From NCBI GenBank assembly GCA_025201365.1, contig JAIXMF010000050.1, forward strand, positions 1 through 54,910: DNA of 54,910 bases, given 5' to 3'. The position numbers were made by a program, and so were the translations under genes. Below the pieces are notes generated by a model. It had not been told where the DNA came from. It did not search any database and was given only the letters and a program-made list of their open reading frames with translations. How positions within the stretch are numbered: position 1 is the first letter of the stretch; each line of letters starts with the position of its first letter. This DNA comes from Syncephalis plumigaleata (Eukaryota; Zoopagomycota; Zoopagomycetes; Zoopagales; Piptocephalidaceae). Positions 18,797 through 44,836 of this stretch are shown piece after piece.

Positions 18797-18905
18797 GATG
18801 ACTCATTTACAAGGCTTTTCCTTCTGATGAACGCAGTTGGCCATTTGTTCTTACGAATAAATAATAGTTATGATAATACGTATCTAGATGTGAAAGCAAT
18901 AATCA

Positions 18906-19238
18906 TCACGGATAAGTTGTTTCTTGTTGTCCTTCATTTCTTGAATGTTTAGAAATAATGACACTTTGATGTAGTTGTGTTGGAACACCATTTCCATTGC
19001 AAAGACTGAGAATAATCTGAATAAAATTCAGACATGCTGCCATATCCCGATTCCATACATGATACTCGAATCCTTTACCTTTCATGTCATCTTTACAATT
19101 CTGATGTGTGCATCTAATAGAGTGATGAATTAGTATATTGTTATAGATTGTACTCATTTTAAGAAGGCATGACAAGTGACAGTAGGATATCTCGTCAATT
19201 AGAAAGACTTGAACACCATGCTTCATTATTATCCACAC
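18906..19238 (-). pseudogene. Fanzor/TnpB-type nuclease C-terminal relic, copy 1
   Basis: An open frame of 110 codons, with the first ATG at 19224-19226. It encodes only the end of a TnpB/Fanzor-like RuvC nuclease: a DE-x-S motif with C-x3-C, a second C-x4-C pair (CTHQNC) forming the zinc finger, and WNRDMAACLNF with the last catalytic Asp (codon 19044-19046), then a GVP-type tail. Full-length Fanzors are several hundred residues and also need the RuvC-I and RuvC-II parts, which are missing. The frame upstream is stopped by TAA at 19239-19241, where copy 2 has CAA. The 5' end abuts the F-box promoter. Assignment rests on the zinc-finger plus RD-x-AA-x-N pattern, with no search run. It cannot be an active nuclease as it stands. 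Confidence 0.65.
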
Positions 19239-19325
19239 TTACGTATGCTTTATTTGTGTATCCTTGATTAAAATAACGTCATCGTATTCCTCTACCCCTT
19301 ACTGTCTTTCTTATTCCATTCCACT
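19239..19325. promoter_or_regulatory. Shared 5' region of relic and F-box gene 1
   Basis: 87 bp between the relic frame and the F-box ATG, nearly identical to 36583-36669 in the other unit. It contains a TGACG half-site read as AACGTCATCG and a pyrimidine-rich run ending at the ATG. On the minus strand this DNA continues the relic's reading frame (GAG GAA TAC GAT GAC ...), so the F-box promoter appears built on former nuclease coding sequence. Confidence 0.5.
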
Positions 19326-20960
19326 ATGTCTACTACTACTACTACTGAAGTATCGAGTAATTCCAACTCGTCTTGTAGATTACTAGAGTGTTTGAATAGT
19401 CTTCCATTTCATGACCAGCGTGTCTTCCGTAGTCTACTTGGTCATATCGAATTAGTGCGTTTATCAGCATGTTGTCGCTCGTTAAGAAGCAGTATTCGAA
19501 ATGATACATTATTATGGCAAAAACTATACCATAGGGATTTCCTATCGGGTGCCCATTATGCTAAAGAAATGGAATTCGTATTATGGTGTATACGCACGGA
19601 TGTCAACAATCCATGTACATCGGATAAACGAGCCGATCTACTAGAGAATGTGGACTGGTACAACACATATCGTCGACGAGTGAGCACCGAGAATAATTGG
19701 CGATATGGACGATGCAATATTTCAAATATCAATATGGAGCATGACAAGGATGGAATACATTATCGCAAAGATGATAATAATTGTATATTTATTACGCAAC
19801 AAGATTGTTCAGACGGGACATCAAGGTCGCATCCCTATCATGCTTTAGAATATTTGCCACATTCAAATTTTAAGTCAGGCAACAATACTGTATATAACAG
19901 TACATTACCCACATCGTCAAACGTTCTCCCGCTAGATATTGGTAATGAAACTAAATATTTTTATGTTACGGGTGATCATTACATAGCTGTATCTCCTAGG
20001 GCAATCACAACCAAGCCTAAGTATACTGTAAAAATACTTACTCGCAAACACGGTGGTGTTTTCACTACATTCGATGTTCCAGTACAATATAAAGTGAAGA
20101 CAATCCAGGGGAAATGGGTGTCATTAGTGCGTAAATCATACGAGCCATCCAGGTGTTCGCAACTTTGTACAAGTAATATTAATAATTATACAATGATGCC
20201 ATATAACTAGTGCTAATAATCAATGAATTTAGTCGGTATAATGGTATTTGATATAGAGAATAATACCATGTGTCCAGGAAGCATTGGTGGTATATGGAAT
20301 GCAACTCGTTTCTACAAAACAACCAATAATACAGCAATAGTATACACAACACTACTAGTCGAAAATGATGATACAGATCATATTGAATGGGCATTATACC
20401 AATTCTCAAACAATAATCCTGTTGTACAATTGCGAAGTGGCTGGTTTCAACTACCTGAGAGGATAACCGATGTGTCAGTATTTGCTCATAATTCATACGA
20501 TTTGTATATGGTCATCAATATATATGATCATCCAGATTATGATATATACATAATGCATAGTGTAGCATCTAGTGGTCAAAGCCACATTCCACGTAACTGC
20601 TACACTATGACTAAACAACATATATCTATTCCATTGTTAAGGGCTGGATGCGAATATTTAGATTTTGGTTTTAAATCAACAAAAATATGGACAGACTTAT
20701 CCTACAATAACGATCAAGTATTACAAATACCGAATGCAAAAGACCTCACACATATTATTGGAAATCTTTATGTTTTAATTACAAAAGAGCATAATTATAT
20801 AGGAAATCCAATACTTGTAGATATCAGTACAAACGAAATAATACGTAAATTGGAAGCGCTAAACACACAATGGAGATCGCCTGCTTGTAAAATGTTTGGC
20901 ATAATAGGTAGTTCCTATAACAATCATGCACAAACAATACAAGAATACGGCGAATTATAG
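19326..20960 (+). CDS. F-box protein, copy 1
   Basis: Two exons. Exon 1 is 19326 to 20166 or 20172, depending on which of two GT donors is used; exon 2 is 20233-20960. About 522-524 aa. After a Thr/Ser/Asn-rich start, residues 17-72 form an F-box: LNSLPFHDQRVFRSLLGH, then LVRLSACCRSLR, then LWQKLYHRDF. F-box proteins link substrates to SCF ubiquitin ligases through Skp1. The remaining 450 residues have no motif I recognise; they are rich in Asn, Tyr and beta-type segments and could be a substrate-binding domain. The partner copy lies at 35005-36582, inverted. Residues 1-127 differ at only nine positions from it, but the rest has diverged far more. The intron is supported by both copies keeping the same phase. 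Confidence 0.75.
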
Positions 20961-20992
20961 CAAGTATCAATAAATCATAATATATATTGTTA

Positions 20993-21437
20993 TTGATTAC
21001 ATTAGAGCGAGCAATATGTTTCTATTAACTAGTAATGAGGAATAGCTATTATTAATTATCACTAATTGCAATATATGATATCACAATCATTAACATCTCC
21101 CTCAACTACTAGGGCCATGACAACTACTCAATAATAATAACAATGCGATGATGATGTTAACAATCGTGCAAGATTATTTATTGATAAAGAGCAAAAGTTA
21201 AAGGCTAGCAGCGCTAATCGGTTGGAGGACTCATTTATTTCCTTATCAATTTGCTAATTTAAATTTTTGATGGCAAATAAACCGCTCGTTCATTCTTTGT
21301 TTGAATCCACCCGAATCTTGCCTTAATTCTGACTGTTCCATTTCCCAAGTGGTTCTTCCTAGATCCAGCGCTGTATAGCTGTGTTCACGACCGCTATAGG
21401 CATTGTTGACGTTAAATTATTGGTGACAATAGCAGCT
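20993..21437. other. Intergenic upstream of DnaJ gene
   Basis: AT-rich, with no gene seen. A frame open into the DnaJ gene begins at GTG 21381, but the targeting-peptide-like sequence starts at the ATG at 21438. Confidence 0.5.
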
Positions 21438-23484
21438 ATGGCACTACGATTAAGCAATGCATTCCACGTTCAGTCTACCACTAGTAGAGTGACGTCGTGT
21501 ATACGCCGGATCAGACCGGCGGTGGCATTACCGGTGCGTGTAGCTAGTATTCATACTACCAGTGCTACACGCTTATTTAATGGCTGTAGTCGCGTTACTC
21601 TACTCAATGATTGTCGATTGTCACGTTCAGTAGGGGGCATGTCAACAACGCGTAAATCAAGAGTAAGTAGCAATTAAGAATCTCCTAAGAATGACGTGCA
21701 ATTCTAACTTGTACCATTTATATAATAGTCCTTTCATACTACAGGTAATATAGAAACGAACAAATAAGCAATATGTATATGTATATTTGCTTATCATCAT
21801 CATCATAATCATGTTTAGCAACGAATGCTGCCTTAAAACGCGATGCCTACGAGGTTCTGGGCATTTCAAGAACCGCCAGTCAATCGGAAGTTAAGAAAGC
21901 GTATTACGCGGTAAGTCAACAGCATCTCATTGTAATGATTTTATAGTAATCTTTTCCTTCTTCTTCTATATTCATGACATTTTAGTTGGCAAAGAAATAT
22001 CATCCGGATACGAATAAGGATAAAGGCGCACATGACAAGTTTGTAGAAATTCAAGAAGCCTATGAAGTAAGATGTGAATGATATCATCGTGTAGCTACAT
22101 AGAATTAACAATGAGCAATAGATTCTATCAGACGAGCAGAAACGAGCATCTTATGATCAATTTGGTCATGCTGGTTTTAATGGTAAGTATATATACACTA
22201 AACTAGTGTTATATTCTAATTTGTTATATGTTTATTCATAGGAGAAGCACCACCGGGTGCTGGTGGATTCCCTGGTGCACATCCATTTGGTGGTGGTGGT
22301 GCCGGATTCTCGCCTAATGACATTTTTGAACAATTCTTTGGTGGTGGATTCCGACAGGCGGGTGCTCGAGGTGGTGGTGGCTTCCAAACGGTAGGCGACG
22401 ATCTTCAGGTAAGCCATCATTCATTGTTGCTTGTAGTATAGGACAGCAGAGTTAACTCGCATGACATCTACTCACTAGGTTCGCTTGACCATTTCATTTA
22501 TGGAGGCGGTTAAAGGCACCACTAAAACAATTCGTATCTCGCCCATTGTCACTTGCCGTACGTGTAAGGGCAATGGCACCAAAGATGGTAAGCGACCCGA
22601 GAGTTGCAAGGCTTGCCATGGCACGGGACATCGCGTGATAATGCAGGGACCATTCCAAATGGCTACGCCTTGCAATGTGTGTTCCGGCACCGGTGAATAC
22701 ATCTCCTCCGCCAATCAGTGTACCACATGTAAGGGTGCAAAGCGTATACGTGAAAGCAAGACTGTCTCAGTCGACATACCGCCCGGTGTCGACAACGATG
22801 TCAAAGTACGTCTAGCCGGTGAAGGTGACGCGCCCGAGGAGGGCAATGGACCACGAGGAGATCTATACGTACAACTTGCGGTAAGCATCCCTGTGTATCG
22901 ATATAACAACTAGCAAACTAACTAACTAGCAAACTAATGAATACTAGGTTGAACGATCACCCATCTTCAAACGACAAGGCGCTAATGTTTATCTAGATGT
23001 GAATGTACCACTACAAAAAGCTATACTAGGCGGTGAAATACGTATACCCACGCTAGATGGTGATGTAGAGCTTAAAGTTAGCACGGGTACTCAACCGGAT
23101 GAAGTACGTGTACTACGTCAACGCGGTATCAAGAAGCTAAATAGTAAAGATCGTGGTGATCAATACGTTAAAATGAAGGTGCAAGTTCCTACGTAAGTGA
23201 TGAATCATCTACCTGCATTATACGTAATTAACATTCGATCTACTTGATTCAATAGTAAATTAACAGCACGACAACGAGAATTACTGGAGGCATTTGCTGC
23301 CGAGATGGAGGGACGTTCCACACAAAGTAAACAGGAGGAACAGGATCCATCGGTGGACAATAGCAAATCGTCGAGTTTCTTCAAGTCGGCATTCGATAAG
23401 ATCCGTGGTAAACAGCAGGACGACTCGAATGACAAAGATGATGCCAATCAAGATAAGAAAAATCCTAATTCTGACAAAGAATAA
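21438..23484 (+). CDS. MDJ1: Mitochondrial DnaJ/Hsp40 co-chaperone
   Basis: Eight exons: 21438-21651, 21819-21910, 21986-22066, 22122-22182, 22242-22408, 22479-22880, 22948-23192 and 23256-23484, 496 aa (yeast Mdj1 is 511). Residues 1-60 are Arg/Ser/Thr-rich without acids, a typical mitochondrial presequence. The J domain begins at KRDAYEVLG and has HPD at 108-110. A Gly/Phe-rich linker follows. The zinc-finger domain has four C-x2-C-x-G modules ([32 protein letters not shown]; the last lacks its final Gly). Then come the substrate-binding beta domains and a Lys/Asp-rich tail. It would stimulate mitochondrial Hsp70 ATPase in matrix protein folding. The exon 1 donor is uncertain: GTAAAT at 21652 and a site at about 21667 both keep frame, while the better-looking GTAAGT at 21663 does not. 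Confidence 0.9.
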
Positions 23485-24952
23485 TCGAGTATTTTATAAT
23501 GCAATAAAGAAAAGAAAAGAAACCACATCAATAACATGTAATGCTTACCTAATCTTAAAAATGTTGCAAACTATAAGCAAGTATCGAATGTTTAATTAGT
23601 TTTATCATATATACACATGTACACTGTGGACAATAGAGACTAGAATTGACACGGAATAAACACGTTTATCACAGTTTGGCGTTGCACAAAAGTGAAGAGC
23701 AATACACGCATAGGAGACACTCTACATACACGATAGACTTTAATACAAGGGGAAATGCAAAAGTGTTCGTGTACGAAGAGAGAGAATGAAAGTGAAAGAG
23801 CAACTATGTCGTTCTGCTTAACTATCATAGAAACGGATACTCGCGTGTCATGATGCGTATATGATGAGAGAAAAGTCAACACGCAAACAGAGACGGAAAG
23901 AAAAGAAGAAACGAAAAGAAATAAAGCCGACGATGAATGAATGAATGAATGAATGAACGGGAGAGTGAGTGAGTGAGTGAGATGGGTGCACACACACAAT
24001 ACCATTTGACTAGCAGATGATATTGCACAAGTGATGCCATATACAATCAAGAATGACGTGTAGGCATAACGACGAGAGTGTGATATGCGCACACGGTATA
24101 AGGATACTTGGTCACAAAAGGGAACGAGATTGGTAGATTTGAATTTGAAAAAGGGAATACAATCGATGATGTAATACGTCGACTGTAACGAATAATATGT
24201 TATGATGTATAATAACAGCAACCAGTTAAAAAGAATACATACACACACGATGATAATGAGGATATACTCATACTAGCTATCATCTCATCTTATACTCATA
24301 ACATGAATGGAGATAAATGAGGATTCGATCAAAGGTGAAGAAAAGGTAGTGTGAAAGTGATAGAGGACTCCAACGCGATGGAGTGAACAAGAATAAAACA
24401 AAATAGAAGATATGTATGTGTGACCAAATGGAAAGTAAAGGAGAAGCAGGAGAAGCAGGAAAAGGAACGGGAAGATACACACAACTGCCAGCAATTGTGC
24501 AGCTGGCCGCAGCCAAGAAGGGACCTACGACCAGCGTGGGGCCAGTCCACTAGTCTTAGAAACCATTCGACTATCCTTGTCAGTCATATAAATAATAGAG
24601 GAATGAGTAGAGACTAGTGAACAGTACAACGATGGAGTCTAATAATAATATAATATAATAATAATAATATAATAACGGAAACGGAAATAGTGACATCCAA
24701 AGTTGATTTCCATAATAACAGTAAGACATACTATATATCATTTTTTTCAATGTTAATAATGAAAAGACATGAATACAGATTGTCTTTTGGTAATAGTAAC
24801 TGAATAACTGGAATAATACGATAAATCACTGTTGTATATAACAGAAATAACAACAGCTACATACAGATACGCGATTACTGAATAATCAACCCTTGCACAA
24901 CCATGACGACGATGATGACGATGACAAGAAGAACAGCATTGATTAGTCCGTA
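23485..24952. other. Intergenic with tetranucleotide microsatellites
   Basis: 1.5 kb between the convergent DnaJ and ankyrin-DIL genes. It contains (TGAA)n at about 23934-23957 and (GAGT)n at about 23963-23981, a (GCAGGAGAA)-type purine repeat near 24441-24460, and AT-only runs near 24641-24675. A 202-codon frame across the repeats on the minus strand is a repeat artefact (poly-Ser/Leu/His). No gene or RNA recognised. Confidence 0.5.
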
Positions 24953-27492
24953 TTACGTATGTTTGGGACCATCAAGTAGACTGAAGAACTCGTCGGGTAC
25001 GGACGGTGTAAAGTCCTTGCCGCCGCTGTTCTTGCCCCAGGATAGGCTCATCTCGTTGTTGGAGGGCACGGAGAAGGGCAGCATGTGAGCAGAGTCGACG
25101 AGCTCTTGAACATCATTGGGATCACCGGCTCCTTCACCGCGTGCATCACGATCTAGATCGCGTACACTACGCACGCTATTAACCGTGCATAGATCGGCGT
25201 CATCAGCTGGTGGTTGTTCTCCCGCGGGTAATGCTTGTTGCGCAGTAGCATCCGAGACTGCCTCGATGTAACGACGTACATCGCCGGTAACGCGTTTCTC
25301 GCCAATCTCATAGCGATACATACGTACGGCACGCATTAACTGCAGGGCGTTCAATTGATCTAAAGCCTTGATTGTCTCGACGTAGCCCTCTACATCACGT
25401 AGTTGCGACATACACTGTAGGAATTGTAATAGCTGGGTGACTGGTGCCAAGCGTGACAACAAAGATGTCGGCAGATGGTTGTTGCGAACCCATGCTTCCA
25501 GTTCCGACAGATTCATACGGATCTGCATGGCTTTCGAGCGACTACACAATGCACGATCCGTGAGGATACCGTTAAAGAGTTCGGAATTAATGTAGTAGAG
25601 TAGTTGCGTGGTGGCCTGGTGAATGAGCGATGGGTGAACCTCGTATGTTTGCAACACGAAGAGCGACGAGCTAAGTAGTGCTGTCACTGAACGTGGGGTC
25701 ACCGAGGCTTGCGGTGTAAAAGAACGACGGAACGATATGCGACGATTCATGCTGGCGGACGATGGACGAATGGCGTAGCTGCCGCTAATTGTCTTGGAGC
25801 GATGTAGGAAGCGTGCATTGGCTGCATTCACGCTATCGTTGGCCGATATGTGTGCGAAGGCGCCTTCATTCTTTAGGTTGAACAAGAAGCTGCGACGACT
25901 CTCGCGTTCGAACTTCAAGTCCTCCAAAGGAATTGGATCGTGCAGCAAGATGGCCGCGTGAAGCACGGCAGATAATCGAGCTTGTACGTCGCGTACCAAG
26001 AGGATATACGCCTCCTGGATAAGTTCAGACAATCGACACTGGTGGGTGACCGTGACACCGACAAGGCTGGCATCCTTCCTAAGGTAGTAGAGAAGTTGCG
26101 TGCAATTGGAGAGCCAGAAGGCAAGGAATGGCACCTCGTTCTTGCGTTCCTGGGTCATCTCGCTAATGCTGTCGATAGCGCCACCGAGTAATTCCTCAAG
26201 TAGATCGGACATGCCAAAGCTGTTGGCGTAGCGTGCCGCCAAGAAGAGCACGTTGGCTGGAGTGGCACGCTTCTCACGTGAGCAGAGCGGTTTCATGTCG
26301 CGGACCAGGATATCGATGAGCTTCTGCACGTCATTTGGCGAGAACACGAGCATTTGCGTTGGAAGACAGGTATCCCAGTCGAATTCCATTGGAACGTCGT
26401 CCTCCTCCTCTTCCTCATCGAAACCGAGCGAGTCAAGATCCATGTTTAACTCGCTGGCATTGGCTAGTGCACGTTTCAAGGCTGCTTCAGTCTCCATGAC
26501 CGACATTTCAGGATCGAATCCAATGGGCGTCGCCTCACCCTGCGTGTAATACGAGTTGTCCTCGCGCCAATTGTAGCAGTTGGGGCTGTTACCGCGTAGA
26601 CCTCCGCCGCGAGGTGACGAGAATGCCTCGATTAGCTTCTCGTTAGAGCCGCCCTCATGATTGAAACCATGCTTAACGTATTGCAACACGGTACGGCCGG
26701 TGGCAGATCGCTTATTGGTGGACGCGCCATTATCGAGCAATAGTTTAACGATACGCTCGTGATTGTTGTTAGTGGCCCACATTAGCGCACTCCAACCGAC
26801 TATAGCGTATTATCATCATTATCATCATCATTCAATAAATCAATGTTAGTAATCGTGGTGAATTTGTTACTTATATGATTGCTGAACACAAAATAGCGCA
26901 GAGACTTACATTTATCCTGAGCGTCTACATTAGCACCAGCTCGTAGTAAAGCTTTAGCCACGTCTATATAGCCAAAGCAAGCGGCGTAAATAAGTGGTGT
27001 CGTTCCATCTTCGTCTTGTGCATCTGGATCGATCCATGCTCGAGCATCGGCATTCTCGAGTAATTCGCAAACACGCTTATCGTCGCCGTTAGATGCCGCA
27101 CGCGATAGTAAACGCGACATTCTAGCGTGTTTCATGTCGTCTGACATTTCCTGATCAGCCAAGATATCCTCTTCATTAGCAAATTGATCTGGATCAACCA
27201 CACCCGGTGTACTATAGTCGATGGGCTTGATCTCGAATGTACCGGTGGTGGGACTGGTGATTTCCTCGTCTACAATACCGTCTTCATTTGAAATGGCATC
27301 GTCGCCGGAAGCTGAAGACGATGAACTGTGACCGTCTAATTCGGGCTCAGATAGGGCCAATTCGACACCCGACTCGGAATGATTGTCAGGATGATGTTGT
27401 TCATGATGATCTGCTAACATTTTGTCGCCGAATGAAGTTGCGTCCATACCAGACACAGTAGTAATGACGTCTATGGTGTTGTCAGGTGACAT
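24953..27492 (-). CDS. Ankyrin-repeat and DIL-domain protein
   Basis: Two exons, 26910-27492 and 24953-26799 (intron 110 bp), 809 aa. Residues 1-115 are acidic and Ser-rich. About three ankyrin repeats follow (residues 120-245), e.g. DEDGTTPLIYAACFGYIDVAKALLRAGAN and, across the intron, FGWSALMWATNNNHERIVKLLLDNGAS. An acidic EEEEEDD linker precedes the DIL (dilute) domain, roughly residues 300-720, recognisable from LAFWLSNCTQLLYYL, LLYYINSELFNGIL and QIRMNLSELEAWVRNNHLP. In myosin V the DIL domain is the cargo-binding tail. In fungi DIL occurs with ankyrin repeats in non-motor proteins of poorly known role, probably in vesicle trafficking or polarity. The ATG at 27492 follows a (GAGT)n leader; a longer in-frame extension translates that repeat and is unlikely. 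Confidence 0.88.
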
Positions 27493-30400
27493 ACTAGTGA
27501 GTAAGCGAGTAGGTGAGTGAGTGAGTGAGTGAGATGGTAAAATCACACTAAATCAATGAAAGTGGTAGTAATGGTAATGGTAATAGTAACGAGAGTAATA
27601 ACAGTGGCTATAATGAATGATATGTGCCTTGTGAAATATTCAATAATGGTTGAAGTTGAGACCAGACTAATTGACTGATTGATTGATTGAGTGATTGGTT
27701 GGTTGGTTGGTTGGTTCCGTTGACAAGTGACCGAGGCCGGCGGCACCGAGCTTGAACACCACTATGACTAAATATACAGCAGCTTGGTTAGTATTGGTGT
27801 TTCCAGCTATTATCAGTAGCGAGTGTATCTGCAACACAAACACAAGCAAGCTTGGCTTGGCAGGGGATCATACAACAGCAGTTCAATTGATGGGTGAACA
27901 TCGAACTACAAGTATAGCTTTATCAATAAAAAGAAAAAAGGAGCAATTACGTAAATAGCATTGATGCTGCTCCTATATAAATAGTACGCTCGATATAATT
28001 ATGGTAATAGCAATAATAGCACATATGACAAACACAAAAAGGAAGTTGGCATCTATTTTTGCGCTTGTTCCATCAATAGAAAAACTTTACGAGTGTATGC
28101 TAATGACGATAGAACATAAAATACTACGAGGTCTACTAGTTTAGTTCGTGTTTGCTGCTATTATTAACGAATAATACGAGGGAAAAAACAAAGAAACAAC
28201 AGCCCTTGCTCGTTCAACGTTACATGAAAAAGGATGAAGCAAAAAACTACACTAGTACCATGCATCATATAAGAATACTCATGTACACGATTGAATTACA
28301 ACAACGCAATAAGTAGTTGTAGTAGCCTAGCAAACACAATAAACCAAGTATTCACTCACGCATGCACGCATACACACACAAAACAGAAAACCTACCAATG
28401 CTAATGCAAGTGGCTGCAATAGACGCAAGCGTCGATGCCAGTCAGCAAATGGACGACACAAAAGTAAGAAATAGAGCGAGAGAACGAGAGATGGCGCCCT
28501 ATTCGAGGTAGTAGTAGCCGATAATCAATAGAGGAATCGAGATGATGTGCAGCAGCAAAGGACGTTAGAAGAAAGAAAAGAACTACCGTCTTTCTCTGTT
28601 AAAATATTTCTTAATCGAGAAAGGCGAGGGGCGGGCTAGGGTGGTGATGATGGTGGCAGCAATAATAGTCATTGCATAGGCACACATAGACAAATGTGTG
28701 AGTGTGGTGTGTGTGTGTCATCCATTCAAGTATTAACAGGTAGGGCACAGCCTATTCCCTCTCTCTCTCTTTCTCCCTCATTCAAGCATACATACATACA
28801 CAAGCAAGTATACACGCGCACCATGCATTGACAATGCCTACCTTTTTCTCTTTTTCCCTCTCCACAATCAAAAAGCTAATGGATTATACTAATGGCACAC
28901 TCAGTCGAGATATCATTAAATAGAATTGGCATTGACAAAATGACTTGTTGTCAAAGAGACATAAGCAGTGGAATAGCAGGTTCATCTCATTAAAGTCATT
29001 ACCCAGACTACCTTGTTTACATTGTTTGTACAATATTCCGAATGGTAAAAGTAAACAAATAATGCGTCTATGTAGCTACAGCCTTCATGATCATCACCAT
29101 CATCATTATAGAAAGTGTCATCAATAGCGGTCCATGTGTAATACGAAACAGGTCTGTGTCCCTGTGCCTCTCTCTTTTCTCTCTTCTCTCTCTTTATCCA
29201 TGCCACGAGTAGTGTGTATGCTCATTGATGGCTCAGGGATTTTACACCATTAAAGGAGATTCACTGAATACTCGTACATCCAGCAAAGTCTCCTTTTTAG
29301 CAGAGCAAGCATCTGTACAACAAATGCACACTGATAAATTCACATGTCAACAAAGAGAAGAAGCAACGCTAGCCCATAGCACTATTGCCCCTATCATCAC
29401 ATAGCATGCAATTGAATAATGATAGACGTGCACGCTATGACAGAGAGATATATCAACTCGTATTCTACCAACTATGATTACTCTGAGTAGAGAGAGCGAG
29501 AATTGACTGACCTCTGACGAGTAGTGAAACTATCCGCGTCACATTAGAAAGAAACCACCTCCCAATAGTTGCAATAAATTAATTATGACAACTCGCTTAA
29601 CACTATCATATACGCTCATATAGCATGCATAACCTTCGCTGATAGATTGTACAACTAGCATTATTCATCAATTTACTACTTACTTGAATTTGAGTGTGAT
29701 ATGTATCTGGTGGTGGCGATGTTGTAGTTATATTTGCGTGACCGCAAAAGAATCGGTCACAATAGTAGTAGTAATAGTAGTAGTAGTAGTAGTAATAATA
29801 GCTGAATACGTCTAGTAAGCAGAACTGCGGTGTAATAGCTTCTTATAGCTTGTCGATTAATAGTATTAATAGAAAGGTGAAAACGAGAGTAGCCGACTAT
29901 TCTGAACGTTGTTGTAAGTAAAAAGGCAAAGAAAACTATCGAGAAAGAGGAGCAAAATGACCTCCTTATGCACGTTGGCTGCGAGTGCGTATGGCGATAC
30001 TGTCAGCGTGAGCGTGCACGCAAAAATGAAAGCGTTAATGAAGTGAAAAATAGCAAGCCTTAAACGATGACCTATCACGCATACACACACAATGCAGACA
30101 GGCAGACAGACAGAAAGAGAGAGAGAGAGAGACACTCCTCGTAAAGTGAAAGTGGATTGATGCGCGTGTCGTGTAGAATGCGTGTCAAACCGGTCAATAA
30201 AGTGTGAGCAAATGAGTGGGTGGGTGAGCGAGTGAGTGAGTGAGTTAACACATACACACACTGCTGATAAGCAAGCACAAGTAATAATCAAGAAAAAAAA
30301 GGTCGTAATCAATCAAAGAAAGAAGAATCCTTGCTATTTAGCGTAAACAGCATGATAGTGGTTTATAAATATAGAATTCTCCTCATAACTAAAAACGCTT

Positions 30401-31032
30401 ACCATTGGGGGTAGGGCTGTTCTCTATACGTGTATGTGTATGCGTGTATCAGTTAGGCCAGTTGCTTCTCTCCGCTATGCATGACCCGTAAACGGAAGAC
30501 GGAGTTCAAGGATCGGTGTTGCAAAAACACGTGTAGCACCAACCACATTAAATGTCTCCTTGATTTCATCAATGATTCATGTACAAACATTTCGATAACA
30601 TACTAGAGTGACAACAAAGTAATCTACTAATTTAAAACCTATCATAAACATACAAAACATCAATAAAGCAGGCTTCATCAGTTTCGTTGATTATCTTCTA
30701 GTGCTAGCTTGTTTATCCTGCTGTAGTTGCTACCTGATTGTTGATGTGATATTGAATGGCTATCCTTGTAACAATAGCAACACTCAATTATACATTAGTA
30801 ATGATTCAAATGATTACAATACAACTTGTTGTAATGCAAATAACTTGTTAATGCATGTAAGTCGGTTAGTAAATTATTTGTTCTGATTAAATAGGCAATC
30901 AGCGATAGATGACATTAATATACTCTGTCTATTTTGAATGTACAATCCATTACCTATTGACAAGTTTATTAACTACATCTAATTATTTTAATATGCTAAA
31001 TAGAACATACATGTAATAGTAATGACGAGCAA
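27493..31032. other. 3.5 kb stretch with no recognisable gene
   Basis: Upstream of the ankyrin-DIL gene. (GAGT)n occurs at about 27514-27533, within 45 bp of its ATG, and again at 30226-30245. CA/GT tracts, (CT)n at about 28760-28775, GA runs and (AGT)n at 29767-29794 are also present. A 64-codon frame from the ATG at 27764 starts with a hydrophobic stretch but has no other support. No structural RNA signature was seen. Confidence 0.45.
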
Positions 31033-32379
31033 TTAAACAGCTAGCTTATTTGTTTCAGTGCCAGTGGTTTGCATAAAATTCAATGCTTTCCATCCTACAT
31101 CCATGGGTGGAAGCATTTGGCCAGTACCGCGAAATGAAACGAGCTGACGTTGCACTGTCGATGCTGACAACACTTGTCCCGATGGATTAGACTCTGGAAT
31201 ATTCAATGCTCTCTGAACAAGTGAAATGGGCGCTTGTTTGTCGAGTTCACCGTGGAAGGCAAGCACCGGCACATTTACCGATTGCATTAGTGCATCTTGC
31301 CGTGTTTGATTTATCTGTCGCAGTTCTCGATAATCCCGTAGTAGACCGGCTCGTCGTTCACTACCCCAAGCTATACATGTCTCATAGTGTTTGAACAACT
31401 CGATAGCCGATGGATAATTGGCCAGTTCATCGAATAGCGCAGAGTCCGGCATTGGCAATCGGGATCGTAAACGCGGATCGGTAAGGAATAATTTCGAGAA
31501 ATCCTTAGTGGCCGTCATACCCGCAATAATCCGATGCATCTGATAGGCACGTAGATTGGTCCATAGATCCGTGCCCAATAGCAATAGTTTAGTGAGAATA
31601 CCACCTAGCGAGAGGTTGATTGCCGGTCCCAATAGAGGCGATATCAATGTAACGGAATGAACGCGATCGGGGTAGTGAGCAGCGAAAGCGAGTGCTGCAG
31701 TAGCCGATAAATTACGGGCTACGAGATGGATCGGCTGTCGCACGCCTAAACTATCGAGGAATACCGACATCGCCTCAACTTCCGTGTCGAGTGATGGAAC
31801 CATTGTACTTCGCAGGTATCCCGGTCTACCTATCGACAATAGTGCGAAGTGAGGCAACGCTTCACTTGGTCGCAGTGAATCATCCTGATGAGTGGACGAG
31901 GATGCTTCCACCTCTTGCTGTCCGTATCTCTCAATGAAAAACGACAAATTACGAGCGAGCATAGTATTATCTTCGGATGACGTGGGACAGCAGGGTGTTT
32001 CGTCAACTTCATCGGCAATGCCCACGCTATCACCGCGCGAGTGACGCCACGCCCAAGCGAGCCACGATGCAAGCCAGCGTCCCTCGACGTAGCCACCATC
32101 GAGACATACGATAACCGGGTAGGCCATCACTTTAGCGGGGTCAGGAGCACCTTTGGAGAAATTCGGACCAGGCCGCAGGAAAGGTTGCGGAAATTCATGG
32201 CATGTATCGAATGTATACTGCACCTGGATAGCTTGGTGTCGTTGTTGCGACAACTTACTAGGCAGTGTCATGGTACGCTGATTATACGACATGAGCTGGT
32301 GGGTAAAGGCAGCATGTCGTTGCCGATGTCGAAATGACATGACAAGCTGCCTGTAGACAGAGGGAGCTTGCGTGTTCAT
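31033..32379 (-). CDS. Alpha/beta-hydrolase-fold protein, probable pseudoenzyme
   Basis: Single exon, 448 aa, ATG at 32379. The fold is recognisable. After a variable N-terminus come the first strands (YPVIVCLDGGYVEG). Then the nucleophile-elbow region HLVARNLSATAALAFAAHYPDRV occurs, where active enzymes have a G-x-S-x-G motif; here the Ser position is Asn223 and both Gly positions are changed. LISPLLGP and VPVLAFHGELD (acid Asp380 retained) follow. The position of the catalytic His in GTG-x-MLPP is Gln421. Two of three triad residues are therefore lost, without any stop or frameshift. Likely a non-catalytic relative, perhaps a binding or scaffold protein. An insertion of about 40 residues (116-170, acidic) separates the first strand from the rest. 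No organelle signal is obvious. Confidence 0.75.
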   Translation of the reverse strand: MNTQAPSVYRQLVMSFRHRQRHAAFTHQLMSYNQRTMTLPSKLSQQRHQAIQVQYTFDTCHEFPQPFLRPGPNFSKGAPDPAKVMAYPVIVCLDGGYVEGRWLASWLAWAWRHSRGDSVGIADEVDETPCCPTSSEDNTMLARNLSFFIERYGQQEVEASSSTHQDDSLRPSEALPHFALLSIGRPGYLRSTMVPSLDTEVEAMSVFLDSLGVRQPIHLVARNLSATAALAFAAHYPDRVHSVTLISPLLGPAINLSLGGILTKLLLLGTDLWTNLRAYQMHRIIAGMTATKDFSKLFLTDPRLRSRLPMPDSALFDELANYPSAIELFKHYETCIAWGSERRAGLLRDYRELRQINQTRQDALMQSVNVPVLAFHGELDKQAPISLVQRALNIPESNPSGQVLSASTVQRQLVSFRGTGQMLPPMDVGWKALNFMQTTGTETNKLAV

Positions 32380-32764
32380 ACAAAAAAGTGAAATGCTACG
32401 ACGGAGAAATGAATTGTACGTTCAAACTTGTTTTTCTTCTTTAGAATCGAATAAATTAACACAGGATATTAGTGCGTACAACTAATGTATCAATATCATA
32501 ATGAATAACAATAGTTGTTGTTAATACGTAATATCCATTCATTGTCTTGTGTAATAAATATGTATTGCTACAAGAATACCTGCAGGTTGATTATTACTAA
32601 GATGATAGGCATTCATGTTGCAATCATCGATTATAAACTGGATAAAGGTAACTAATTGTTACAAGGTGATGTTAAAAACAATACGGTTACTTTATTAGTT
32701 CTACGCTGCTTGACAGCATAGCAGATTAGCATGTATGCAGCTACACGCTTAAATAGCTAATCGA
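32380..32764. other. Intergenic between hydrolase-fold gene and enolase
   Basis: AT-rich 5' flank of the hydrolase-fold gene and 3' flank of enolase. No gene or clear element seen. Confidence 0.5.
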
Positions 32765-34155
32765 TTAGAGAGGAGAACGGAAGTGTTCGCCGGCATAGCG
32801 AGCATTGACACCGAGCTCTTCTTCAATGCGCAACAACTGGTTGTACTTGGCCAAACGTTCTGAACGGCAAGGAGCACCAGTCTTGATCTGGCCAACACCG
32901 AGACCGACAACGAGATCGGCGATGAAGGTGTCCTCGGTCTCGCCCGAACGATGGGAAACCATAGTGCCCCAGCCATCTCCACGAGCCTTGATGGTTGCCT
33001 CGATAGATTCGGTTACAGTACCGATCTGGTTCACCTTCAACAAAAGACCGTTACAGGCCTTCTTCTGGATGGCCTCTTGGATACGAGTGGGATTAGATAC
33101 GGTCAAGTCATCGCCGACCACTTGGACCTGTTGGCCAACCTTATTGGTGAAGCTAGACCAGGCGGACCAGTCATCCTGTTCGAATGGATCTTCAATCGAT
33201 ACAATGGGATAGTCGTTGACGAAGGATGCGTACAAATCGCCCAATTGTTCGCCTGTCAACCACTTGGATGGGTCAGAGTTTGAGTTCTTGAAGTCAAGAT
33301 CGTATTTCTCATCGTGGTAGAATTCGGAGGCGGCCGAATCCATACCGATCTTTACTTTATCGGTGTAGCCAGCCTTAAGAATGGCGTCCTTCAACAACTC
33401 GAGACCTTCACGGTTATCCTGGATGTTAGGTGCGAAACCACCCTCATCACCAACATTGGTGGCTAATACGAATGACGTATATATATATATGGGTTAGGGA
33501 TGGTATGAAAAAATAAAAGCAAAATATTATATCACCTACCATCTTGACCATATTTGGACTTGATCACGCTCTTCAAGGCATGGTACACTTCGCTACCGAT
33601 CTTCATGGCTTCGGTGAAGCTGGCGGCACCGGTAGGCAAGATCATGAACTCTTGCATGGCCAACTTGTTACCGGCATGCGAGCCACCGTTGATGACATTG
33701 AAGGCGGGCACTGGCAGTATAATCTTGGCATCATTGCCATAAGCCAAACGAGCAATATGACGATAGAGAGGGATGCCTTGCTGGGCAGCTCCTGCCTTGC
33801 ACACGGCCAATGAAACACCGAGAATGGCGTTAGCACCTAGCTTGCTCTTGTTCTGGGTGCCATCAAGCTTGTTCAAGAAATCGTCGACGGCTTTTTGGTT
33901 GGCCACATCAAGCTTGGCATCGATGAGCGCTGGGGCAATAATGTCCTTGACGTTATTGACCGCTTGAAGGACACCTTTGCCAAGATAGTCGGCCTTGACG
34001 CCATCGCGTAGCTCGTGCGCTTCGTGAATACCGGTGGATGCACCCGATGGCACTGCCGCACGGAATACGCCCAGGTTGGTGGTTACCTCGACTTCAACCG
34101 TAGGGTTGCCGCGCGAGTCGAATATCTGACGAGCGTGTACTTTGGAGATAGTCAT
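32765..34155 (-). CDS. ENO1: Enolase (2-phosphoglycerate dehydratase)
   Basis: Two exons, 33540-34155 and 32765-33462 (intron 77 bp), 437 aa, the normal length. Cytosolic glycolytic enzyme converting 2-phosphoglycerate to phosphoenolpyruvate. Seen are the N-terminal lid [20 protein letters not shown], the GASTG loop, [16 protein letters not shown], the Mg-binding Asp in [10 protein letters not shown], Glu/Asp in [10 protein letters not shown] and GDDLTVSNP, the catalytic Lys in [10 protein letters not shown], and the [11 protein letters not shown] signature. The splice junction at YGQD-A restores [12 protein letters not shown] exactly. The ATG at 34155 is fixed by homology. Strong C-ending codon use and a TATA box about 165 bp upstream fit a very highly expressed gene. 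Confidence 0.97.
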
Positions 34156-34922
34156 AGTGAAGGAGTAGTAGTGGTACTTTTCGTAATATGCGTCTCACCA
34201 ACGATAAACGATAGCAAGTGACCTAGTAGAGAAAGGAAAAAGAAATAGCAACAACAGCAAACGAGCGAGCGAACGAACGATAACGATAAGAAATCGGAAC
34301 CACGCGCTGACGACACCTATTTATACGAGGAGGACGGCAACCCTTCGCTACCATGACCGGATGATGGCGGAAACCCCAATATGTGTCAAACAGAAAATGG
34401 CATTGGGTGACGACACCAGTTACACGAAAAAACTGCCAACTTTTATCTAGTTATGGCAACCAGTCAGCGTTGTTATCCTTTAACTTTTACTGCTTATTAC
34501 TAAATAGATTTGCACAATTGTTAACACCATTATCGCATTGCTATTATTATTGAGTAGTTGTCATGACCCTAGCAGTTGAGGAGATGTTAATGATCGCGAT
34601 ATCATATGTTACAATAGTCTTAACAAGCTATGATGAATTGACAGGAACATTTAGTAAAGGACAATATGGATGCTTGTTTATTCAGTGCATTGTTATAATG
34701 CCATTCGAGAGTATTCAGATAGCAAGCTTCAATCAAGCAGAATGAAATGATGCCGTAGTACATGTGCTACCGAGCAACATCCTCTATGCATTGAGAAGTA
34801 TTCATCAGTTTGTACAGCTTGATGTCTCAATTGCTACTATAGTTGATTTATTCGATTAATCATCCAGTTCATAGAAAGTATTAGCATGTGTTATGGTTTA
34901 ATGATGTATAAACGCTACACTT
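34156..34922. promoter_or_regulatory. Enolase upstream region
   Basis: Includes the enolase leader and core promoter. A (CGAA)n-like run lies near 34262-34280. The distal part (about 34500-34922) is AT-rich with only a chance 60-codon frame. Confidence 0.45.
34317..34325 (-). promoter_or_regulatory. TATA box of enolase
   Basis: TATAAATAG on the minus strand, about 165 bp before the enolase ATG. It matches the eukaryotic TATA consensus, and the spacing implies a 5' leader of roughly 130 nt. Not tested experimentally here. Confidence 0.6.
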
Positions 34923-35004
34923 ATTAACAAACATAGTATGATTTATTGATACTGGTTATAATTCACCGTATTCTTGTATTATTGACACATGATCATCACA
35001 GGAA

Positions 35005-36582
35005 CTACATATTATACCGGCCATTGTATATATAATCATCCACTTGTTCGTCCCTAGCTGGTGCTTTCAATCTGCATATCACCTTCTTTGTATTGATGTC
35101 TATAAGCAATCGCCTTTTCATATAATCACAATACGTAGTAAACATATAGAGATCTCCAATAATATTTTGGATGTATGCCGTATCCGGTATTTGCAATATT
35201 TGGTCATCATTGCAGGATAAGTCTGTCCATATTTTTGTCGGTTTGGAACCGAATGTGAAATAATCGCATCCAGCCCTTAATAATGGTGTAGGTATATGCT
35301 CGTCAGATGCATCGTAGCAGTTACGTGGAGTATGGCTTCGACCACTGGATGCTACGCTATGCATTATGCATATTTTACAAGCAAGATAATCACTTGTTCC
35401 AATTAGCATATGCGAATCGTATAAATTTTGAGCAAAATATATTGTCACGTCCAGCATCCAATCAGGTAGTTCAAACGAGCCACTTCGCAATTGTACAACA
35501 GGATTATTGCTCGAGAACTGGTATAATTCCCATTCAATATATTCTGTTTCATCATCTCTGGTTAGGCTTACTGTGTATACTATTGCTGCATTGTCGGTTG
35601 TTTTATAGAAACATATCGCATGCAATGTATCATCAATGCTTCCTGGACACATGATACTATTATCTATATCGAATACCATTATATCGGCTGAATGCATTGG
35701 TTATTAGTACTGGTTATATTACATCATTCCACAATTACTACACTTACAAAATAGCGTATCACCTAAATCTCGTGATTGAATCACTAATAATACCCATTTC
35801 CCCTCGATTGTATCCACTCGATATTGTGATGGAACATCGAATGTAGTGAAAACACCACCATGTTTGCGAGTAAGTATTTTTACATTATAGTTGGTATCGC
35901 TCTCGATTTTCTTAGGAAAGACGGCTATGTAATGGTCGCCCGTAACATAATCATACTCAGCATCAGTATCACCATCCAGCGAAAGGATATTGGGCGATGT
36001 GGAAAACGTACTGCCATATACAATGTTGTTGCTTGATTTAAGGTTTGAATGTGGCAAATATTCTAAACTATAATAATGACTCGGTGCTTCATCTGAGCAA
36101 GTTTGTTGTATGATAACTAAACTATTATCCACGGCTTCTGTGTTATAATCTAATTTATGCCCGTCCTGTTCCATGGCAATACGTGTGGTCCTGCATCGTT
36201 TATATCGCCAATTATTCTCGGTGCTCACTCGTCGACGATATGTGTTGTACCAGTCCACGTTCTCTAGTAGATTGGCTCGTTTATCCGATGTACATGGATT
36301 GTTGACATCCGTGCGTATACACCACAATACGAATTCCATTTCTTTAACATAATGGGCACCCGATAGAAAATCCCTATGGTATCGTTCTTGCCATAATACT
36401 TTATCATGTCGAATACTGCTTCTTAACGAGTGACAACATGCTGATAAACGCACTAATTCGATATGACCAAGTAGACTACGGAAGACACGCTGGTCATGAA
36501 ATGGAAGACTATTCAGACAGTCTAGTAATCTACAAGACGAGTTGGAATTACTCGATACTTCAGTAGTAGTAGTAGTAGACAT
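35005..36582 (-). CDS. F-box protein, copy 2
   Basis: Two exons, 35748-36582 and 35005-35687 (intron 60 bp with a good GTAAGT donor), 505 aa. The F-box (residues 17-72) and the whole first 127 residues are about 93% identical to copy 1. Beyond that, identity falls to roughly half, with blocks such as LEYLPHSN, VTGDHYIAV, VKILTRKHGGVFTTFDV and MCPGSI kept. The C-terminus is shortened: a TAG at 35005-35007 lies inside the segment that still encodes the copy 1 tail, and the copy 1-like codons (GAATACGG-GAATTATAA) remain readable after it. Probably functional as an SCF substrate receptor; substrate unknown. The start ATG is shared with copy 1. Confidence 0.75.
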
Positions 36583-36609
36583 AGTGGAATGGAATAAGAA
36601 AGACAGTAA

Positions 36610-37002
36610 GGGGTAGAGAAATACGATGACGTTATTTTAATCAAGAATACACAAATAAATCATACGCAAGTGTGGATAACAATGAAGCATGGTGTTCAGA
36701 TCTTTCTAATTGATGAGATATCCAACTGTCACTTGTCATGCCTTCTTAAGATGAGTACAATCTATACCAATATACTAATTCATTATTCTATTAGATGCAC
36801 ACATCAGAATTGTAAAGATGACATGAAAGGTAAAGGATTCGAGTATCGTGTATGGAATCGGGATATGGCAGCATGTCTGAATGTTATTCAGATTATTCTC
36901 AGTCTTCGCAATGGAAATGGTGTTCCAACACAACTTCATCAAAGTGCCATTGCTTCTAATCGTTCAAGAAATGAAGGACAAGGACAACGAGGAACAACTT
37001 AA
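36610..37002 (+). pseudogene. Fanzor/TnpB-type nuclease C-terminal relic, copy 2
   Basis: The frame is open from 36610 (just after TAA at 36607-36609) to the TAA at 37000-37002, with the first ATG at 36682. It encodes the same C-terminal fragment as copy 1, about 91% identical over the first 90 residues: C-x3-C after DEIS, CTHQNC, WNRDMAACLN with the last RuvC Asp (codon 36862-36864), and GVPTQL. Compared with copy 1 it keeps CAA instead of TAA upstream, so more of the old frame can be read (about 20 further codons, into the F-box promoter). RuvC-I and RuvC-II parts are absent. Whether a short protein is made is unknown. The family call is by motif only. Confidence 0.65.
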
Positions 37003-37125
37003 CTGTGATGGTGATCGCTACTCACATCTAAATACGTATTATCATAACTGTTATTTATTCATAATAACGAAAGGCTAACTGTGGTAATTAAGAGGTATAG
37101 CCTTGTAGTTATGACATGATGACGT

Positions 37126-43689: not shown

Positions 43690-44836
<1,147 letters not shown>

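Follow-up and report, generated by a model that had tools for sequence, protein, structure and literature searches.

The question raised by this locus is why a fragment of a Fanzor gene should stand head-to-head with an F-box gene, and why it should do so twice. The window, by which the whole analysed stretch of 54,910 nucleotides is meant (contig JAIXMF010000050.1 of Syncephalis plumigaleata, assembly GCA_025201365.1), contains two such units in opposite orientations. A sequence-only reading had described them as a two-copy cassette of 2.2 kb whose Fanzor-like frame might be a simple passenger or a domesticated small protein. The inverted pair is real. Self-comparison of the window aligned inverted arms at 18927-19771 and 36137-36981 that are 93% complementary, and in both copies the relic frame lies head-to-head with the F-box open reading frame (ORF). 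Four more inverted arm pairs, of 76-84%, were found in the window. The cassette, however, was shown not to be limited to two copies: the units are two of many in a dispersed transposon family, and their extent is longer than proposed, about 2.43 kb for copy 1. Very probably, they are non-autonomous transposons of the Tc1/mariner superfamily that descend from a Fanzor1 element and carry a whole F-box gene.

The Fanzor ancestry proposed earlier was borne out. The frame of about 110 codons opposite each F-box gene contains WNRDMAACLN, and phmmer matched the relic to the solved Fanzor1 proteins of Spizellomyces punctatus (SpuFz1, E=4.2e-4) and Parasitella parasitica (PpFz1, E=1.4e-3), although searches of Pfam and NCBIfam gave no match. 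The relic represents the C-terminal end of Fanzor1. It keeps CTHQNC and NRD, and the RuvC-I and RuvC-II parts are absent. By our reading of the alignments, nothing in the relic corresponds to the first zinc knuckle (CPAC), and the frame reads through the intron, whose donor GT is now AT. The Fanzor1 motif D ... C4 zinc finger ... RD, as given in the available text of PMC3627910, is not complete in the relic. Both relic frames are free of stops, as had been noted, but copy 2 is 86% identical in amino acids over 106 residues rather than about 91% over 110 codons in each copy.

Searching the genome with the unit, a step suggested along with the original reading, gave many copies. Matches to the TNB domain led to a full-length parent, a 4.1-kb Fanzor1 element. 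This parent (L036:2575-6659) is a 4085-bp element with terminal inverted repeats (TIRs) and holds a 655-aa exon 1, an intron and an exon 2. Exon 1 matched Parasitella parasitica Fanzor1 with E=7.6e-107, and the predicted protein, a full-length open frame, carries DPGRR and CCPAC in exon 1 and WNRD in exon 2. At the left end of the F-box unit, 425 bp (18808-19232) match the 3' 685 bp of the parent in pieces, and the right ~91 bp of the unit match the 5' end of the parent (~90 bp). Between these shared ends, a complete intron-containing F-box gene stands where the parent has its Fanzor body. The units look to be derived from a 4.1-kb Fanzor1-bearing element that lost most of its Fanzor gene. Genome-wide, the TNB domain has 25 weak matches, none above the family cut-off; 13 are parts of open frames 614-667 aa long. 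No relatives were found in viral contigs searched with the Fanzor protein.

The assembly searched comprises 32.6 Mb in 383 contigs, with eukaryotic genes that look fungal. Match counts are lower bounds, and many loci are assembled twice, so that the number of distinct loci may be nearer half of the counts; stop-free matches, one-piece matches and TNB frames were counted by hand. The unit of 2.16 kb had 656 first-look candidates. Scoring of 40 of these loci yielded 45 matching pieces, and at 30 of the 40 loci the match runs over about 2.0-2.2 kb in one piece. The relic protein has at least 152 genome matches, F-box exon 1 at least 138 (122 of 138 without a stop) and exon 2 at least 150 (138 of 150 without a stop). 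Five of seven tested insertion sites occur twice, with flanks 95-100% identical. Contig C223 matches the window over both units (96% over 5.7 kb at copy 2, 95% over 4.7 kb at copy 1). Both window elements are repeated there together with their surroundings, at about 151786-174367 and 95-96% identity, and the assembly seems to hold either two haplotypes or a large duplication.

Homology of the sampled copies to the window starts mostly at about 18800-18860; in copies that retain the right end, it stops at about 21224-21230. The element ends are inverted repeats of the form TACAGG(G/A)TTTTTCCAACCGATTA..., and the flanks outside them are unrelated, except in a few flank-sharing pairs. Sites resembling the TIR with at most 3 mismatches were found 628 + 656 times genome-wide, versus 1 + 3 times for the reversed pattern. 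The TIRs stand at the limits of homology, as in non-autonomous transposons of the Tc1/mariner (IS630) group; in some sampled copies, they are absent at one or both ends. Shortened relatives were also observed. Two loci (L039:1791-2383 and L040:1190-1782) hold an element of ~590 bp, near transposase remnants, in which nothing of the F-box unit is left but its two ends, with part of the relic among them. At L032:964-1540, 577 bp between inverted TIR-like sites contain a 124-aa frame with the relic motif and no F-box gene. C179:20058-20637 and C362:519075-523157 have common flanks, with an insert of about 580 bp in the former in place of the 4.1-kb Fanzor element of the latter; the insert would be an internally deleted or a different copy at the same site.

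As for the F-box gene, the F-box ORF and the ORF that follows it form one intron-containing gene, whose product has 524 aa (copy 1) or 508 aa (copy 2). The F-box domain (PF12937) was detected at E=2.7e-4 in copy 1 (21.1 bits, below the cut-off of 24.3), at E=0.0044 in copy 2 and at 12.5-20.9 bits in four full-length copies. Of 17 family members, 16 show it at E<=0.1, the best at 3.3e-5. A spliced F-box protein of at least 500 aa was obtained in 18 of 23 sampled copies, a count that may be slightly high because splice sites were picked by script for the longest frame and, compared with the family, L012 looks off at its ends and L028 at its join. Introns similar to that of copy 1 are present in most of the 23. 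Four copies (L046, L047, L048 and L049) are intron-less, each with a single frame (514-517 aa) in which a shortened junction, and no clean splice, marks the place of the intron. Two tandem F-box genes of another contig (L045) show homology to the unit only within element positions 504-2177 (blastn), and the match limits of the nearer of the two define the captured segment given in Table 1. The 4.8 kb fetched around these genes contain neither a TIR, with up to 5 mismatches allowed, nor a relic. Gene sequence that lies within TIRs in the units is also found without them, as in transduplication. Plasmids searched with the F-box protein gave no relatives.

Which enzyme could move such elements? 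A search of the genome with PF13358 gave 31 matches. One of them is an intact 383-aa DDE_3 protein (L041, E=1.5e-28), whose right TIR ends in the complement of TACAGGGTTTTTCCAACC. The genome has a DDE protein with TIRs similar, and not identical, to those of the Fanzor and F-box elements. A relative of 2566 bp (L044) has 281-bp TIRs and a truncated transposase. A search with PF03184 gave no transposase match, and its positive control was silent too. A further DDE_3 frame of 380 aa (L042) was observed inside a Fanzor element, between perfect 213-bp inverted repeats at 1022-1234 and 2465-2677.

The copies have been shown to exchange sequence. Mean diversity among 22 copies is 0.01-0.13 at 18928-19727. 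It is higher over the outermost 120 bp, at 0.18-0.25, and ranges over 0.10-0.39 in the C-terminal part of the F-box gene. Pairwise distances in the low-diversity block and in the C-terminal part are hardly correlated (r=0.16 for all pairs, 0.02 for pairs more than 15% apart). Three flank-sharing pairs were compared in 150-bp windows. L026 and L027 differ by 0-2% outside the element; within it, the values for the first six windows are 17, 3, 5, 3, 7 and 3%, and those that follow are 0-3%, with one window at 6%. L018 and L020 differ by 0-3% outside, up to 6% in the block and then 0-1%. The window and C223 differ by 0-5% outside (mostly 0-2%) and by 2-15% throughout the element. The differences in the block were variants present in other copies in 62, 88 and 71% of cases in L026/L027, L018/L020 and window/C223, respectively, versus 14-15% for random new mutations. 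For the C-terminal part of the same pairs, the values were 77, 79 and 69% versus 39-40%. Two further close pairs are alike in their share of such variants. The 0.8-kb block, which spans the relic, the promoter region and the F-box N-terminus, is exchanged between non-allelic copies by ectopic gene conversion.

Selection was assessed by counting distinct variants against a neutral expectation derived from the observed spectrum. In F-box codons 13-142 of 21 copies, no nonsense variant was found versus 9.7 expected (P=5e-5), and the missense/synonymous ratio was 0.71 of neutral (P=0.006). For the C-terminus, 17 copies chosen as intact, and conditioned in that respect, gave 19 nonsense variants versus 50.6 expected (P=2e-7) and a missense/synonymous ratio of 0.95 of neutral (P=0.11). 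A reading one base out of frame, an unplanned control, gave 54 stops versus 49.2 expected. In 25 C-terminal codons, at least 7 residues occur among the 17 copies. The F-box N-terminus is constrained, and the C-terminal part changes almost freely. The nonsense deficit and the mostly stop-free genome matches indicate that the F-box sequence is kept as a gene. No 20-codon window showed significant positive selection after correction; at codons 141-160, 261-280 and 461-480, the missense/synonymous ratio was 1.5-1.7 times neutral, with nominal P of 0.04-0.12. Our best guess is that the encoded proteins are putative SCF-type receptors.

The relic behaves differently from what its survival had suggested. 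In codons 4-103 of 21 copies, 2 nonsense variants were found versus 5.6 expected (P=0.075), and the missense/synonymous ratio was 0.89 of neutral, which is not significant. The dN/dS check proposed by the sequence-only reading was extended to 22 copies. It gave 0.81 pooled and 0.83 as the median (NG86), within the range of 0.61-1.04 of five other frames and above four of the five. The three codon positions vary alike (0.060, 0.065 and 0.074). Of the 77 best-scoring genome matches, each of at least 95 residues, 28 hold a stop and 49 are stop-free. The relic frame is not measurably constrained at the protein level, and a function is not supported by its survival in both copies. The relic copies stay similar because they lie in the 0.8-kb conversion block, which includes non-coding DNA.

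Several observations weigh against the view that the units are transposons loaded with an F-box gene and an idle Fanzor remnant. Copies entered the sample by their similarity to window copy 1. Both window copies have decayed right TIRs, and the right end of L019 reads ...TGCA, without TA. TA was found at both limits in 6 of 7 elements (4 of 5 F-box, 2 of 2 Fanzor), a count that is partly built in because the pattern used to locate the limits itself starts with TA. No empty insertion site was found with seven joined-flank queries in the same genome, so that insertion is inferred from the TIRs and the unrelated flanks. The sole link of the transposase to the family is a TIR similarity of about 71% over 83 bp to the Fanzor element, and the left end of the intact transposase copy lies outside the fetched piece. 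Among the members with scores shown, none has an F-box domain above the Pfam curated cut-off, and an AlphaFold model of an intron-less F-box copy had a mean pLDDT of 33 and was not used. The tandem genes at L045, whose outer flanks were covered over about 0.46 and 0.71 kb, might represent old elements whose ends have been lost. At 0.65 (pooled), the pairwise dN/dS of the F-box gene does not fall below the off-frame baseline measured in the relic region, and variation is similar at all three codon positions of the gene; the case for selection therefore rests on the missing nonsense variants and the kept frame. Finally, a star-tree simulation predicted 50% stop-free relics, and 17 of 20 sampled were stop-free; shared variants and the sampling by similarity to copy 1 make this test unreliable, and a small chance is left for a domesticated relic protein.

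Could the Fanzor end still be at work as RNA? The Fanzor end might supply a guide RNA in trans, with intact Fanzors cutting insertion-free sites and repair spreading the element. RNAs from the right end have been described for TnpB and Fanzor elements, according to the part of PMC10711439 available to us. The last ~60 bp are similar between Fanzor and F-box elements, the genome has Fanzor genes predicted to be intact, and in two of the three flank-sharing pairs the raised divergence starts at the Fanzor end. A consensus structure from 15 aligned ends, in a gappy alignment, however, contained 0 pairs, and an Rfam scan of the window gave no match (a tRNA scan of the window found none either). 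With the diversity given above, the outermost 120 bp rank among the more variable parts of the element, and conservation of the TIRs by itself is explained by a transposase. We consider this explanation unlikely.

Still less likely is that these genes form an ordinary host F-box family, grown by segmental and tandem duplication, in which the Fanzor end and the TIRs are bystanders of the ancestral copy. Tandem members without a detectable TIR at L045, the insertion sites present twice with near-identical flanks and the failure to recover an empty site would all fit such a history. In many copies, however, homology ends at or near the TIRs and the flanks are unrelated, and the relic and the F-box gene occur together at dozens of dispersed loci. 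That the relic is a functional Fanzor-derived zinc-finger/RuvC-III protein, domesticated and kept with the F-box gene, has only a slim chance of being right: stop-free matches, a mild and non-significant nonsense deficit and the excess over simulation among copies that are not independent speak for it, against which stand the alike codon positions, the near-neutral dN/dS, the lost intron donor and first zinc knuckle and a block conversion that accounts for low divergence down to non-coding DNA. Of the two options left by the sequence-only reading, the simple passenger is favoured by the absent significant constraint and the block conversion, and domestication is most likely not the case.

Under the transposon reading, a host F-box gene would have been taken up by a Fanzor element. 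Copies would then be moved in trans by a Tc1/mariner transposase, for which the intact 383-aa copy with a similar TIR is a candidate. Breaks left by excision, or simple homology, may let other copies act as repair templates, by which the genes would be shuffled. The F-box proteins may function as substrate receptors of the SCF type, in which the Skp1-binding end is conserved and the recognition end changes fast, and the Fanzor relic would travel as a passenger at the transposon end, inside the conversion block. One may go further and picture a selfish element that carries a diversified ubiquitin-ligase receptor. Transposase or Fanzor breaks repaired from other copies would shuffle an F-box repertoire with a conserved F-box end and ever-changing recognition ends, which would either degrade element-silencing factors or serve in host recognition. 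We regard this extension as possible, although doubtful.

Table 1. Features of the two F-box/Fanzor-relic elements, numbered from the first nucleotide of the window
Feature	Position	Strand	Basis or remark
Element copy 1	about 18808-21237
Left TIR of copy 1, TACAAGGCTTTTCCTTCTGATGA	18808-18830	+	3 mismatches to family TIR pattern
Fanzor1 C-terminal relic frame, copy 1 (exon 1 end, read-through intron, exon 2)	18909-19238	-	110 aa; phmmer to SpuFz1, PpFz1
Low-diversity block (relic, promoter region, F-box N-terminus)	18928-19720		copy diversity and conversion analysis
Captured F-box gene segment, copy 1	about 19311-20984	+	blastn, element positions 504-2177 versus L045
F-box gene exon 1, copy 1	19326-20172	+	splice model; PF12937 sub-threshold
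F-box gene intron, copy 1	20173-20232	+	60 nt, GT...AG, CTAAT branch-like motif
F-box gene exon 2, copy 1	20233-20960	+	splice model; 150 exon-2 matches genome-wide
Right end of copy 1	21147-21237	-	matches 5' terminal ~91 bp of Fanzor elements; degenerate right TIR 21215-21237
Element copy 2	34443-37107	-	low end approximate, TIR there decayed
F-box gene, copy 2, 508 aa	35005-36582	-	intron 35688-35747 (60 nt) or 35688-35738 (51 nt, script's choice)
Fanzor1 C-terminal relic frame, copy 2	36670-36987	+	genome match of relic protein

Two further frames were observed in passing. At 43690-44379 (minus strand) of the window lie three tandem 228-nt repeats, 93-99% identical, in a gene that we take to be polyubiquitin-like. 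At L038:1-3459, an open frame of 1152 aa adjoins a Fanzor element; it presumably belongs to a retrotransposon polyprotein, to judge from its look.

Fast-evolving nematode and plant F-box families combine a conserved F-box end, a fast-changing recognition end and high copy number, as do the units described here. To our knowledge, those families are not carried by a TIR transposon. Among the matches listed in a literature search for Fanzor with F-box, no title linked the two, and searches for Fanzor with mariner, or with non-autonomous and fungi, gave nothing on an F-box association by title and opening of the abstract. Elements with Mariner TIRs that carry only Fanzor1, such as PUl-4, have been described (Bao and Jurka, 2013; PMC3627910). 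According to the available text of that paper, PUl-4-type elements have Mariner-type TIRs, a TA target site and Fanzor1 without a transposase, a description that the 4.1-kb parents found here appear to match. The term F-box is absent from that text, and those elements differ from the present ones in having no captured F-box gene.

Transduplication itself is known in fungi. In Pseudocercospora fijiensis, hAT-mediated transduplication has produced hundreds of copies of histone H3 (PMC6710886), and the sections of this source available to us name a further histone H3 case, from a different fungus, whose copies are potentially active. In P. fijiensis, all transposon copies are reported there as inactivated by repeat-induced point mutation, whereas here most F-box matches are open and copies exchange sequence. 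The superfamily also differs (hAT), and the Fanzor remnant is a feature of the present case. In plants, Pack-TYPE transposons are non-autonomous DNA transposons that carry host coding sequence (PMC8903248), as the units do; as far as that source was available, they are described for plants, whereas here a Fanzor-element derivative holds a complete, mostly open gene. In Caenorhabditis, F-box genes have captured a Tc1/Mariner helix-turn-helix domain (Almeida et al., 2025; PMC12062965), and the same authors cite an F-box domain in a fish Zisupton isoform. F-box genes meet Tc1/Mariner sequence in both settings, but in Caenorhabditis the F-box protein gained a transposon domain, whereas here the transposon carries the whole F-box gene. 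Capture of F-box domains by transposable elements was named by Almeida et al. (2025) as an alternative for which, in the part of the paper available to us, no evidence was found. Transduplication is known, and this variant of it, the capture of a whole F-box gene, appears to be new; the S. plumigaleata family is an apparent case of the scenario that those authors considered. The family illustrates how mariner-type elements with a Fanzor can lose this content and be loaded with a host gene instead, and it is a natural set for measuring receptor diversification as well as gene conversion among copies of a transposon.

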